From positions 483,501-547,500 of the forward strand of contig NZ_CP029820.1 of NCBI RefSeq assembly GCF_003226855.1: a stretch of 64,000 nucleotides of DNA, read 5' to 3'. The position numbers were made by a program, and so were the translations under genes. The notes beneath the pieces are model-generated. The model was not told the DNA's origin. It made no database searches and saw only the letters and a list, made by a program, of their open reading frames with translations. This document shows, piece after piece, positions 28,254 to 35,028 of the stretch. Positions within the stretch are counted from its first letter, which is position 1. Every line of letters starts with the position of its first letter. Source of the DNA: Blattabacterium sp. (Cryptocercus kyebangensis) (GTDB lineage: Bacteria; Bacteroidota; Bacteroidia; Flavobacteriales; Blattabacteriaceae).

Positions 28254-29051
28254 ATGGAAAAAATATATGGATCACGTAATATAAAAATTAAAAATTTAAT
28301 AAAAATTTATAAAAAAAAAAAGGACAATAAAATGTTTATTGTTGAAGGAGTAAAAGAATTTGAAATGGCTATAATAGGAAATTATAGACCAATAGGAATA
28401 TTTGTATGTAAAAATATATTTCATCAATATAATATGATTAAATCGTTTAATAACATTGTTTTTTTTATTAATATAAAAGCTTTTCAAAAATTAGCATGTA
28501 GAAAAAATTCAGGTGGAATCATTGCCTTGTTTAAGGAAAAAAAATTTTCTAGTCTAGAAACTATAAAAGTTCCTAAAAATCCTTTTATTCTTATATTGGA
28601 TGGAATAGAGAAACCTGGTAACTTGGGATCTATATTAAGGACAGCTGATGCAGCAGGAGTACATTTTATTATATTATGTAATACGAAAACATATATTTTT
28701 AATCCTAATGTAATTAGATGTAGTCTAGGATGCGTTTTTACAAAAAAAATTTTTATAGAAAAAATAAAATCAATTATTTATTGGTTACAAGAAAAAAACA
28801 TAGAAATTGCAGTAACAGGATTCCATAATAAAAAATCTGAAACATTATATAAAACTAAATTTTCTTCACATTTAGCTATTGTTTTAGGGTCCGAAAGTAA
28901 AGGAGTATCCAATATATGGTTAAATATATCCGATAAAATAATAACGATTCCCATGTTTGGATCTATAGATTCTATGAATGTAAGTAATGCGACATCTATA
29001 ATTATATATGAAATAATTAGACAAAGAAATACATGTAAGTTTTCTAAATAA
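28254..29051 (+). CDS. TrmH/SpoU-family RNA 2'-O-methyltransferase
   Basis: A 265-residue SPOUT enzyme. It has an N-terminal substrate-binding domain, then LILDGIEKPGNLGSILRTAD (motif 1 with conserved Asn and Arg), IVLGSESKGVSNIW (motif 2) and ITIPMFGSIDSMNVSNATSI (motif 3). These make up the knotted SAM site. It methylates ribose in rRNA or tRNA; the exact target (RlmB-like or another) cannot be read from the sequence. Its last 8 bases overlap the end of rnhA on the opposite strand. Confidence 0.9.
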   Translation: MEKIYGSRNIKIKNLIKIYKKKKDNKMFIVEGVKEFEMAIIGNYRPIGIFVCKNIFHQYNMIKSFNNIVFFINIKAFQKLACRKNSGGIIALFKEKKFSSLETIKVPKNPFILILDGIEKPGNLGSILRTADAAGVHFIILCNTKTYIFNPNVIRCSLGCVFTKKIFIEKIKSIIYWLQEKNIEIAVTGFHNKKSETLYKTKFSSHLAIVLGSESKGVSNIWLNISDKIITIPMFGSIDSMNVSNATSIIIYEIIRQRNTCKFSK

Positions 29052-29525
29052 TTTTTTTTAAATTTTGTTTTTCATATACATGATCTATTTTCAAATTTTT
29101 ACTTTTTGAAGCTTCTACAGATAATCGATCGCAATAATCATTAATATAATGAAGATGATGTCCTTTAACCCATTGAAAAATAATGAAATGTTTATGAAAT
29201 AAATTTAAAAATCGTATCCATAAATCCACATTTTTTTTTTTTTAAAGTTGTTTTTTTCCCATTTAAAAATCCAATTTTTTTGAATAGAATTTATTATATA
29301 TTTAGAATCAGTAAAAACAATAATATTTTGTTTTTTTTTCGTGATTTTTTCTAGACCAACTATTATGGCTAATAGTTCCATTCTATTATTAGTTGTATAA
29401 CGAAATCCTTCGGAAATAACTTTCCAATAAGAAGTCCCGGCTATTTCTATAAAAATAGCATATCCTCCTGGACCAGGATTTCCTTTAGAAGATCCGTCAG
29501 TGTAAATATGAATTTTTTTATTCAC
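29044..29525 (-). CDS. rnhA: Ribonuclease HI, split by a frameshift in a 13-base poly(A) tract
   Basis: Degrades the RNA strand of RNA-DNA hybrids. The first 106-codon frame has YTDGSSKGNPGPGGYA, NNRMELLAI and VFTDSKY with three of the four carboxylates. It then runs out of frame at a run of 13 A on the coding strand (plus 29231-29243). With 14 or 11 A the frame joins DLWIRFLNLFHK, QWVKGHHLHYIN and DYCDRLSVEASKS, supplying the catalytic His and the fourth Asp, and stops at 29044. Everything else is intact, so transcriptional slippage may restore it, or it may be a young pseudogene. The start overlaps the plsC stop by four bases. Confidence 0.85.
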
Positions 29526-30512: not shown

Positions 30513-31502
30513 ATGTATACATTGGGAGAATTTATTATAGAAAATAGAGATCGTTTTTCGTATTCTACAGAAGGACTATTGCGTTTATTTAGTTCTATAA
30601 AGCTAGCGGCTAAGGCTATTAATAAGGAAGTTAATAAAGCAGGGTTAACAGAAGAAATTATAGGAAGTTCTGGAATTACTAATATACAAGGAGAAAATCA
30701 ACAAAAATTGGATAATTTTGCACATAAAGTTTTCATAGAATCCTTTAAAAGTAGAAATATAGTTTGTGGAATAGCTTCAGAAGAGAGCAAAGATTTTATA
30801 GTTTTAAAGGGAGAAAAAGAAAATTCTTTTCAAAAAAAATATATTGTTTTAATAGATCCACTAGATGGTTCATCTAATATAGATGTAAATGTATCCATTG
30901 GGACTATATTTTCAGTATATAGGAGAAAATCTTCTATGAATTTAACAATGGAAGATTTTTTACAGAGAGGTAATCAACAAATTTTAGCAGGGTATATTAT
31001 TTATGGATCATCTACAATATTAGTATATACTACAGGTAATGGAGTCCATGGTTTTACTTTGGATCCTTCTGTTGGTACCTTTTATTTATCTCATCCGAAT
31101 CTTCGTTTTCCTAAAATAGAAAGAATTTACTCTATTAATGAAGGAAATTATGCTAGATTTCCTAATGAAATAAAAAAATTTATAAGATATTGTCAAGAAA
31201 AAGAAGGGAATCGTCCTTATACAGCACGTTATATTGGTTCTTTAGTAGGAGATTTTCATAGAAATATGATACAAGGTGGTATTTATATTTATCCTAAAAC
31301 AGCATATTCCCCAAAAGGAAAATTGAGATTACTTTATGAATGTAATCCTATGGCATTTTTAACGGAACAAGCTGGTGGAAAAGCTTCTGATGGGGAAAAA
31401 AGGATTCTAGATATAGAACCTTCAAATTTACATCAAAGAACGCCATTTATTTGTGGACCTGTAGGTATGGTTTCTAAATTAGAAGAATTTATAAATCCAT
31501 AA
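30513..31502 (+). CDS. fbp: Fructose-1,6-bisphosphatase class I
   Basis: Gluconeogenic phosphatase making fructose 6-phosphate. The 329-residue sequence has the metal site IASEESKDF, the [21 protein letters not shown] block that binds metal and phosphate, and the late [19 protein letters not shown]. Class I identity is clear. Retention fits a symbiont that builds hexose phosphates from amino-acid carbon. rnpA begins 7 bases after its stop, so the two probably share a transcript. Confidence 0.95.
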
Positions 31503-32633: not shown

Positions 32634-34001
32634 TTAAAAGCTATTTTCATATGCTTTCCATCCTGCTTCTCTATATTTTTCTGCAACTATTTTTGGATTA
32701 TCGGATTGATAAATAGCTTTTCCAACAATAATGAAATCGCTATTGTTTTTTATAAAAGCTTGATTAGGATGAATGTAAAGATTCCCTTCATAGTTTTTTC
32801 TTGAATCAGAAAAATGTATACCAGGAGTAAATAATAATAATCTATTGTCAACTTTTCTTTGTGCTACTGTTCCAATTACTTTTGAATTTTTCAAAGAAAT
32901 ATTTAATGCTTTTCTTATATAGTTATCATCAGATAATCTTCCAGAAGAAGACATTTCAGATATAGTAATTAACCCAATATTAGAAGGAATATTCAAATTT
33001 TTTATACTTTCACTTCCTGCAAGTACATGTACTGTGATCACATCTGCCCAAGAAGAAATTTTATGGATTCCATGATGTAATTGAAGATAATTAGTAGGTC
33101 CTACGTCGCATAATTTTCGATCTTCAAATAACAAAAATTTCTTTTTTACAGAAATTTTTTTAAGAAAGGTTATGAATGAAAATGAAAAATCACTAATAAT
33201 ATCTACATGAAGTTTTAATCCACAAATTTGATCCCCAATTAAATTTACCAACTCTAAAATTTTTTCAGAATGTATTAAATCTGCTGAAACGATCAAATTA
33301 GTTTTTTTTTTCAATGCTATATCAATAAGTTTTTTCCCTATTGGATGATAAATTTTTTCTTTTTTTTCTTCATAAGAAATACGTTTTTCCTGAATGTTTT
33401 TTATATTTTTTTTTTTGAAAAAAAACTGAATTATATGTATTTCTTTTTTTTTCAAAAGATTTTTCTTTTCTAATATTTTTAAAACTTCTCCTATACGAAA
33501 TAAAGATCGTATATTAAATCCTCTATTTTTTATATTTTCTATTCCTCCTTGTTCACGATCAAGAATAGATAAAATATTTTTTATAATCAATCCTTCTTTC
33601 TCAATATCTATTACAGTTTTTAACAAACTATCTCCACTAGTGATTACATCTTCTATGAGAAGGCAATTTTGTCCTTTTTTGTAAATTCCTTCTATCATTC
33701 TTTTTGTTCCATAACCTTTATTTTCTTTTCTTTTAATAATTAAAGGAATATTAGATCTTAAGGATAAAGTAGTAGCTATAGGTAAAGCCGCATAGGGAAC
33801 TCCACAAATTAATTCAAATGTATGAGATGGAACTTCATTTAAAAGAAGATCCGATAGTTTTATTAATAAATCTGGTCTAGAAGCAATTGGCCTGAAATCT
33901 ATATATATGGGAGAATTCATTCCACTTTTTAAGGTAAAATGACCAAATTTAATAATCCCTAAATTATAAATTTTTAAAAAAAACTGTTCTTTTTCCTTCA
34001 T
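32634..34001 (-). CDS. pyrEF: UMP synthase: orotate phosphoribosyltransferase fused to OMP decarboxylase
   Basis: The last two steps of UMP synthesis in one 455-residue chain. Residues 1-200 are OPRT, with KSGMNSPIYIDFRPIASRP, IKRKENKGYGTKRMIEG and the PRPP loop LIEDVITSGDSLL. Residues from about 215 are OMP decarboxylase, with LKLHVDIISDFS, the catalytic FEDRKLCDVGPT, SSWADVITVHVLAG and the end VGKAIYQSDNPKIVAEKYREA. The order OPRT-ODC is that of animal and plant UMP synthase. FEDRK..D.G followed by ISSWAD also resembles the eukaryotic decarboxylase more than the DLKxxDI of common bacterial PyrF. It is divergent from pyrD with an 82-base gap. Confidence 0.94.
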   Translation of the reverse strand: MKEKEQFFLKIYNLGIIKFGHFTLKSGMNSPIYIDFRPIASRPDLLIKLSDLLLNEVPSHTFELICGVPYAALPIATTLSLRSNIPLIIKRKENKGYGTKRMIEGIYKKGQNCLLIEDVITSGDSLLKTVIDIEKEGLIIKNILSILDREQGGIENIKNRGFNIRSLFRIGEVLKILEKKNLLKKKEIHIIQFFFKKKNIKNIQEKRISYEEKKEKIYHPIGKKLIDIALKKKTNLIVSADLIHSEKILELVNLIGDQICGLKLHVDIISDFSFSFITFLKKISVKKKFLLFEDRKLCDVGPTNYLQLHHGIHKISSWADVITVHVLAGSESIKNLNIPSNIGLITISEMSSSGRLSDDNYIRKALNISLKNSKVIGTVAQRKVDNRLLLFTPGIHFSDSRKNYEGNLYIHPNQAFIKNNSDFIIVGKAIYQSDNPKIVAEKYREAGWKAYENSF

Positions 34002-34083
34002 AAGGAAACCTTTTTTGGTAAAGTTAAAAATTTTATAATTTTATACTTTTAGGATTCGTTTGTAATATTACACAATATATGTT

Positions 34084-35028
34084 ATGATTATGAAAAAAAT
34101 AGATATTTCCACTAATATAAATGGAATAAAATTTTCATCATGTATCATGAATGCCTCAGGGATTCTATGTTGTACAGAAAAAGAACTTTACAATCTTATG
34201 ATTAGTTCTTCAGGAGCTGTTGTGACAAAAAGTTGTACTATGACACCAAGAAAGGGAAATTTAAAACCAAGATATTTTGAATGGAAGGGAGGAAGTATTA
34301 ATTCTATGGGATTGCCAAATCTTGGAATAGATTTTTATTTAGATTTTTTAGAAAAAAAAAATTCTAAAAAACCTTTTTTATTATCTATATCAGGTCTTTC
34401 TATCGAAGAAAACTATATTATTCTTCGTAAAGCGAATCTTTCTTCAAATATTAATGCTATAGAATTAAATTTATCTTGTCCAAATATATTGGAAAGAGAT
34501 AAAATATTGGGTTACGATTTTTCTAAGATTTCGGATTTTTTAGAAAATATATTTCAATTCTATAAAAAACCTTTAGGAGTTAAGTTACCTCCTTATTTTG
34601 AAGATTTTCATTTTAAAAAAATGGCTTTTATATTAAATAAATACCCTATTTTTTTTGTTACTTGTATCAATAGTTTACCAAATGGGATTTATATTGATAT
34701 AAATCAAGAATCTGTAGTAATTCATCCAAAAAAAGGATTTGGTGGAATAGGAGGTTTATCTATAAAACCATTTGCACTTGCTAATGTTCGTAAATTTTAT
34801 ACTTATCTTCGTAAAGATATCCCTATAATAGGATGTGGAGGTATTTGTACTGGAAAAGACGTATTTGAATATATATTGTGTGGAGCATCTGCAGTCCAGA
34901 TTGGAACTCAATTTTTAAAAGAAGGGATTCCTGTATTTGATAGATTAATCAAGGAATTAATTTCTATTCTAAAAAAGAAAAATTATTCATCTATAAATAG
35001 TTTTAAAGGAAAATTAAATGATTTTTAG
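34084..35028 (+). CDS. pyrD: Dihydroorotate dehydrogenase, class 1A (fumarate-type)
   Basis: Oxidises dihydroorotate to orotate. The 314 residues lack the N-terminal membrane extension of class 2 enzymes. The catalytic base is Cys in LNLSCPNI, as in class 1. The segment INSLPNGIYIDINQESVVIH followed by KKGFGGIGGLSIKP matches class 1A enzymes, which are soluble and use fumarate. No pyrK-like partner (class 1B) is adjacent. It is divergent from pyrEF and overlaps the end of proS by four bases. The start could be the ATG at 34084 or 34090. Confidence 0.9.
   Translation: MIMKKIDISTNINGIKFSSCIMNASGILCCTEKELYNLMISSSGAVVTKSCTMTPRKGNLKPRYFEWKGGSINSMGLPNLGIDFYLDFLEKKNSKKPFLLSISGLSIEENYIILRKANLSSNINAIELNLSCPNILERDKILGYDFSKISDFLENIFQFYKKPLGVKLPPYFEDFHFKKMAFILNKYPIFFVTCINSLPNGIYIDINQESVVIHPKKGFGGIGGLSIKPFALANVRKFYTYLRKDIPIIGCGGICTGKDVFEYILCGASAVQIGTQFLKEGIPVFDRLIKELISILKKKNYSSINSFKGKLNDF

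Follow-up and report, generated by a model that had tools for sequence, protein, structure and literature searches.

The OPRT-OMPDC order of the bifunctional UMP synthase (UMPS) is usually regarded as that of plants and animals, fusions in other lineages being independent (Makiuchi 2007, cited in a passage of PMC2705460). In the OMP decarboxylase (OMPDC) of yeast, Gln215, Tyr217 and Arg235 grip the phosphodianion of the substrate and drive loop closure, and passages of PMC12874384 put the cost of the Q215A and R235A replacements at 2.2 and 5.6 kcal/mol, respectively. For Blattabacterium, a metabolic model counts dihydroorotate among the host-supplied compounds (pyrimidine passages of PMC3287516), a later model added dihydroorotase (those of PMC3819652) and the genome paper of strain Bge describes nucleotide synthesis as complete (those of PMC2768785); these passages make no mention of a fusion. 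We found no recognised description of the OPRT-OMPDC fusion reported here in the literature on Flavobacteria or Blattabacterium.

The gene that we describe lies in a stretch of 64,000 nucleotides of Blattabacterium DNA, which is called the window below. We consider that it probably encodes a bacterial UMP synthase that works, that was inherited vertically and whose phosphodianion gripper has been weakened. The sequence gives the domain make-up, the distribution, the replacement of the ordinary genes, the gene pairing, the gripper changes and the purifying selection; from these we infer the enzyme activities, the kinetics and the donor.

The fused gene, its neighbours and its carriers

The features of the locus are as follows.

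30513..31502, plus strand: class 1 fructose-bisphosphatase, also a neighbour in the f11 genome (L030)
32634..34001, minus strand: bifunctional UMP synthase, OPRT-OMPDC fusion of 455 aa (ORF, Pfam, NCBIfam and solved-structure matches)
33402..34001, minus strand: OPRT domain, about residues 1-200, UMPS-type and not ordinary PyrE (match to human OPRT 2wns; split from PyrE in the tree, 100/100)
33633..33662, minus strand: LLIEDVITSG, residues 114-123, from alignments including that with human OPRT; we take it to be the PRPP-binding motif of the OPRT domain
32637..33386, minus strand: OMP decarboxylase domain, residues 206-455, URA3/UMPS type (Pfam, NCBIfam and structure matches)
33105..33122, minus strand: OMPDC catalytic D-R-K-x-x-D, residues 294-299, aligned with yeast D91, K93 and D96
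32775..32783, minus strand: gripper loop residues 407-409, yeast Gln215 aligned with Asn407 and Tyr217 kept as Tyr409
32715..32720, minus strand: residues 428-429, yeast Arg235-Gly236 aligned with Lys428-Ala429 (codons AAA GCT)
34002..34083, no strand: divergent intergenic region of 82 bp between the UMPS gene and pyrD (ORF coordinates)
34084..35028, plus strand: class-1A (fumarate-type) dihydroorotate dehydrogenase (DHODH), the preceding pathway step (NF002702, 463.7 bits, cut-off 301)

Translation of the minus strand gave an uninterrupted ORF of 455 aa from 34001 to 32634, the plus strand over the same positions containing many stops. Both domains are carried by this one ORF, with the OPRT N-terminal (NCBIfam pyrE, residues 13-172) and the OMPDC C-terminal (NCBIfam pyrF, residues 236-444; Pfam OMPdecase, residues 234-443), which is the animal and plant order announced in the original prediction. 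The motifs that it had quoted as eukaryote-like in the decarboxylase, FEDRKLCDVG, SSWADVITVHV and VGKAIYQSDNPKIVAEKYREA, are all present in the protein. Among solved structures, human OPRT 2wns ranks first (E 7e-50), followed by human OMPDC 9hqy (1e-45) and yeast OMPDC 1dqw (3e-40), compared with 1e-15 for an ordinary bacterial PyrE structure and 5e-10 for PyrF (4lui). Since the human and yeast structures are so far ahead of the ordinary bacterial ones, the resemblance to eukaryotic enzymes is real.

The fusion is the sole match in its own 637-kb, two-contig genome, where there is no second OMPDC, and its G+C content (about 0.23-0.26) is that of its surroundings. When we compared the gene with those of two close relatives, dN/dS was 0.12 and 0.20 for the whole gene and 0.10-0.28 by domain (0.13 and 0.16 for the OMPDC), and both domains are therefore under purifying selection. 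Close relatives that bear a name are Blattabacterium cuenoti strains, with identity of up to 87%. The OPRT domain would convert orotate and PRPP to OMP and the attached OMPDC would convert OMP to UMP, the orotate being presumably supplied by the adjoining class-1A DHODH.

Elsewhere in the window, an RNase HI-like ORF (29050-29525, minus strand) matches Pfam RNase_H over residues 3-97 only and ends at 106 aa directly behind a run of about 13 A; another frame carries the apparent missing C-terminal half. Because the C-terminal half continues in another frame after the A run, this gene is frameshifted or read by slippage.

Of 296 genomes of the order that were searched with the protein, 96 have the fusion at full length: every one of the 46 Blattabacterium, every one of the 48 of family f6 (presumably Weeksellaceae, about 1.7-5.3 Mb), one of f4 (G027) and one of f11 (G034); no internal stop interrupts it in the 46 Blattabacterium genomes. 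Among the 200 others, 174 gave a PyrE-like match only and 26 none, the latter including five 300-kb genomes of Blattabacterium's own family, probably Sulcia-like. For the advised check across cockroach symbionts and Sulcia, the gene is thus present in every Blattabacterium genome of the sample and gave no match in the five probably Sulcia-like ones. The expectation that free-living relatives have separate pyrE and pyrF holds for most families of the order but fails for f6, f4 and f11, fused relatives of free-living size. Since these families carry it, the fusion is an old property of a Flavobacteriales group and was not gained by the symbiont. It would have come by vertical descent from the common ancestor of Blattabacterium, f6, f4 and f11, in which a UMPS-type OPRT-OMPDC fusion would already have taken the place of ordinary PyrE and PyrF_sub2.

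In wider samples, 9 of 395 genomes of the phylum had a full-length match (the own genome and eight of f6), and in the class this OMPDC type reached E 1e-20 or better in 3 of 395 genomes, again the own genome together with two of f6. Outside the order, 3 of 82 plasmid records matched; these are Saprospira plasmids bearing the nearest other fusion, 39-40% identical to that of the window. No carrier was found among viral contigs, searched with the protein and with the alignment, and no phage record had a place covering 80% of the query; when the class of G658 was searched for a true fusion, G658 alone came up.

The neighbouring DHODH passes the curated class-1A cut-off (PRK02506) and matches the solved structure 1dor, presumably Lactococcus PyrDA, at E 2e-97. 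Class-1A DHODH occurs in 49 of the 296 genomes of the order (the 46 Blattabacterium, G027, G034 and the f6 genome G181), and in all 49 it is adjacent and divergent to the UMPS gene, with 48-95 bp between the matches. The quinone-type DHODH (TIGR01036) was strongly matched in 45 other f6 genomes, among the matches listed, and weakly (about 1e-21 to 1e-23) in 12 Blattabacterium; G027, G034, G181 and the own genome are absent from the 225 genomes, of 286, that matched. This exchange of a quinone-type for a fumarate-type DHODH beside the UMPS gene bears on electron disposal in the symbiont. The f11 genome has the fructose-bisphosphatase, UMPS and DHODH genes grouped, as does the window, in which fructose-bisphosphatase and UMPS are separated by a NAAT-type transporter. 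A class-1A-type DHODH also adjoins the fusion in two of the three Saprospira records, its family having been tested for one of them.

Eukaryotic and bacterial relatives of the two domains

We built unrooted trees of the OMPDC (35 rows), of the two domains joined (28 rows) and of the OPRT (49 of 53 rows); the very divergent L067, L094, L095 and L039 were left out of the latter because a first OPRT tree had implausible long branches. Eukaryotes are few in these trees (human, yeast, 8u0z and the Leishmania OPRT). The 22 Flavobacteriales fusions form one group, with 100/99 in the OMPDC tree and 100/99 in the joined tree, and the Saprospira fusions adjoin them, with 100/98 against the rest in the OMPDC tree and on the same side in the joined tree, which also lets two unfused gene pairs (L064 and L065) stand outside all fusions (99/95). 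The OMPDCs of human, yeast and 8u0z are intermixed with those of small-genome bacteria in the OMPDC tree. In that tree, a single group of the Flavobacteriales with human, yeast and 8u0z was rejected (p 0.0136), as it was without yeast (p 0.042), and grouping with human was rejected for the joined domains (p 0.0039) but not for the OPRT alone (p 0.20). A group of the fusions and eukaryotic UMPS that shuts out other bacteria is accordingly rejected by the OMPDC and the joined trees. The OMPDC tree did not reject the eukaryotes as a single group (p 0.26), nor the Flavobacteriales, Saprospira and eukaryotes as one side of the unrooted tree (p 0.42).

The fusion of G181 (f6, genus g70; L071), the only one of the 48 f6 genomes with a class-1A DHODH, is the nearest to Blattabacterium outside the genus, with 53% identity. 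It sides weakly with Blattabacterium in the OMPDC (84/30) and joined (80/44) trees and with f6 in the OPRT tree (85/85).

A eukaryotic donor had been suggested, beside another bacterium, by the original prediction; the ancestor of these Flavobacteriales would then have received a whole UMPS gene from a eukaryote long ago. The animal-like domain order, the human proteins at the top of the solved-structure matches and the OPRT, which by itself does not reject the human grouping, are consistent with such a transfer; the eukaryotic sample is small, and because of this thin sampling a protist donor outside it is possible. However, the rejections by the OMPDC and by the joined domains, the place of the Saprospira fusions on the Flavobacteriales side and the unfused bacterial pairs, to which human and yeast are nearer than to the Flavobacteriales fusions, argue against it, and we regard this transfer as unlikely. 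The immediate source of the fusion is more probably bacterial than eukaryotic. Of the horizontal acquisition that was foreseen, only a weak form is left, an old exchange with another bacterium as the favoured source, the eukaryotic form being unsupported and the event not peculiar to the symbiont. Because the OMPDC and joined trees reject the grouping, we make no claim to membership of a eukaryotic clade for the Blattabacterium protein, which by its domains would work like a UMP synthase.

The small-genome bacteria come from a search of 96 genomes belonging to the same phylum as the MAG hit L027, most of them around 0.9 Mb in size and by that size probably Patescibacteria-like; 10 of the 96 match at 1e-20. 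L064 and L065 have, as two genes, a UMPS-type OPRT with a URA3-type OMPDC directly behind it. The L064 pair sits behind pyrD and pyrK, and in L065 the two genes overlap and are flanked by dihydroorotase and a carbamoyltransferase. L067-L070 also have OPRT then OMPDC, but the OPRT of L068-L070 is of the ordinary type. The contig that carries L064 has 4,053 bases, so that the binning of L064 may be wrong; its neighbours pyrD and pyrK are bacterial. At L064:1694-1702, the OMPDC start follows the OPRT stop at a distance of three bases and shares its frame, and the loss of one stop would therefore fuse the two proteins. An OMPDC of eukaryote type is found across L064-L070, and L066 scores 317 bits against 8u0z and 300 bits against human.

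The gene order of L064 and L065 gives the animal domain order a ready bacterial precursor. We tentatively raise a wider possibility, to which we give a rather low probability: the Bacteroidota and animal UMPS may stem from one fusion of a bacterial pyrE-pyrF pair of the L064/L065 kind, which would make eukaryotic UMPS bacterial in origin. The Blattabacterium enzyme would then be a naturally occurring gripper variant as long-lived as the genus itself. The animal order in a bacterial clade, together with operons that hold the eukaryote-like parts separately, offers a way to test the origin of eukaryotic UMPS.

The phosphodianion gripper of the decarboxylase

The window protein has Asn and Lys in place of Gln215 and Arg235, Tyr217 being kept; we use this triad as typical of URA3-type OMPDC rather than as a published criterion of membership. 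Among 41 distinct Blattabacterium proteins, Gln215 is lost in all 41 (Asn in 38) and Tyr217 is retained in all, and position 235 holds Lys in 35 proteins and Arg in the other 6. D37, K59, H61, D91, K93, D96 and S154 are invariant in the 41 proteins, and they include the residues of the OMPDC chemistry (yeast D37, K59, D91, K93 and D96). Outside the genus, the 22 distinct other fusions all retain both Gln215 and Arg235, and Arg235 is present in 8 of 10 OMPDC rows from small-genome bacteria and eukaryotes, the small-genome enzymes not being canonical throughout. Outside Blattabacterium, 58 OMPDC columns are conserved at 90% or more; at 8 of them, 29 Blattabacterium proteins have another majority residue, and four of these (211, 215, 235 and 236) belong to the gripper loop or to Arg235-Gly236. 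On a tree made without these columns, four changes are needed at site 235, four at 215 and three at 236.

The substitutions Gln215 to Asn and Arg235 to Lys, with Tyr217 kept, should raise the Km for OMP. Fusion to the OPRT, by keeping local OMP high, or a low flux may make the weak gripper tolerable. AT-driven drift from Arg AGA to Lys AAA would be the simplest cause of the substitution.

Instead of a working variant, the gripper changes could mark a decarboxylase in early decay, UMP then coming from elsewhere. Two of the three gripper residues are replaced and the loop varies in length, as a decaying OMPDC half would have it, but the OMPDC dN/dS values, the chemistry residues invariant in 41 of 41 proteins, the lack of an internal stop in 46 genomes and the lack of a second OMPDC in the own genome all point the other way. 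The persistence of Tyr217 and the selection argue against simple decay, which we hold to be quite improbable. The change of the gripper across the genus amounts to a natural experiment on a textbook enzyme, in which Blattabacterium gets by with Asn and Lys at two positions whose replacement by Ala is costly in yeast. Of the results, the substituted gripper and the precursors in operons most deserve to be pursued.

Replacement of PyrE and PyrF, and likeness to known systems

Of 148 genomes of the order, 95 have PyrF_sub2 (TIGR02127), and f1, f4, f6 and f11 contribute none of these; the family is also absent among the family matches of the fusion protein. In the OPRT tree, a 100/100 branch parts ordinary PyrE from the UMPS-type OPRT, and forcing the fusions together with six flavobacterial PyrE was rejected (p 2.3e-7). 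The protein of the window therefore stands apart from the ordinary PyrE and PyrF_sub2 of Bacteroidota, and the firm grouping with Bacteroidetes PyrE and PyrF that would have spoken against the original prediction was not observed. In the fused families, the OPRT-OMPDC fusion takes the place of ordinary PyrE and PyrF_sub2.

Fusions of consecutive pathway steps are common, which would be a precedent for a joining of the PyrE and PyrF genes that the order already had. However, such a local fusion is ruled out for the OPRT by the tree test, and the order's PyrF is PyrF_sub2, to which the fusion does not match; we find it very improbable. That Blattabacterium itself gained the gene, for example from its insect host, is scarcely credible, since beyond the animal-like motifs nothing suggests it and it is opposed by the fusion in all 48 f6 genomes, f4 and f11, by the shared neighbourhood in f11 and by a base composition that matches the surroundings. 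A recent transfer into Blattabacterium is ruled out by the distribution.

The vertically inherited bacterial UMP synthase that we propose resembles several known systems. Human UMPS (2wns, 9hqy) has the same two domains in the same order (PMC2705460) and is the best match for both, but it stands on another branch in the OMPDC and joined trees, and Blattabacterium has the Gln and Arg of the gripper substituted. The yeast URA3-type protein is an OMPDC of the same type (E 3e-40) with aligned catalytic residues but, unlike the fusion, it is an OMPDC alone. The Saprospira fusions, annotated pyrF, share the fusion, its order and the side of the tree, but their plasmids are of about 53 kb, two of the three stretches also bear guaAB, and the DHODH is in tandem, whereas it is divergent in Blattabacterium. 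On the Saprospira grandis Lewin plasmid (L061:1759-2181), a second, partial OMPDC (Pfam positions 133-221), annotated as a HUMPS-family protein and overlapping the end of a KilA-N gene, lies beside the intact fusion. The OMPDC-OPRT fusion of cyanobacteria and kinetoplastids (NF004034/PRK05500) has the same two activities in the reverse order; the window protein reaches 133.8 bits against its cut-off of 656, with only the OPRT part matching. Finally, the unfused pyrE-pyrF pairs L064 and L065 consist of a UMPS-type OPRT and a URA3-type OMPDC as the fusion does, but as two genes.
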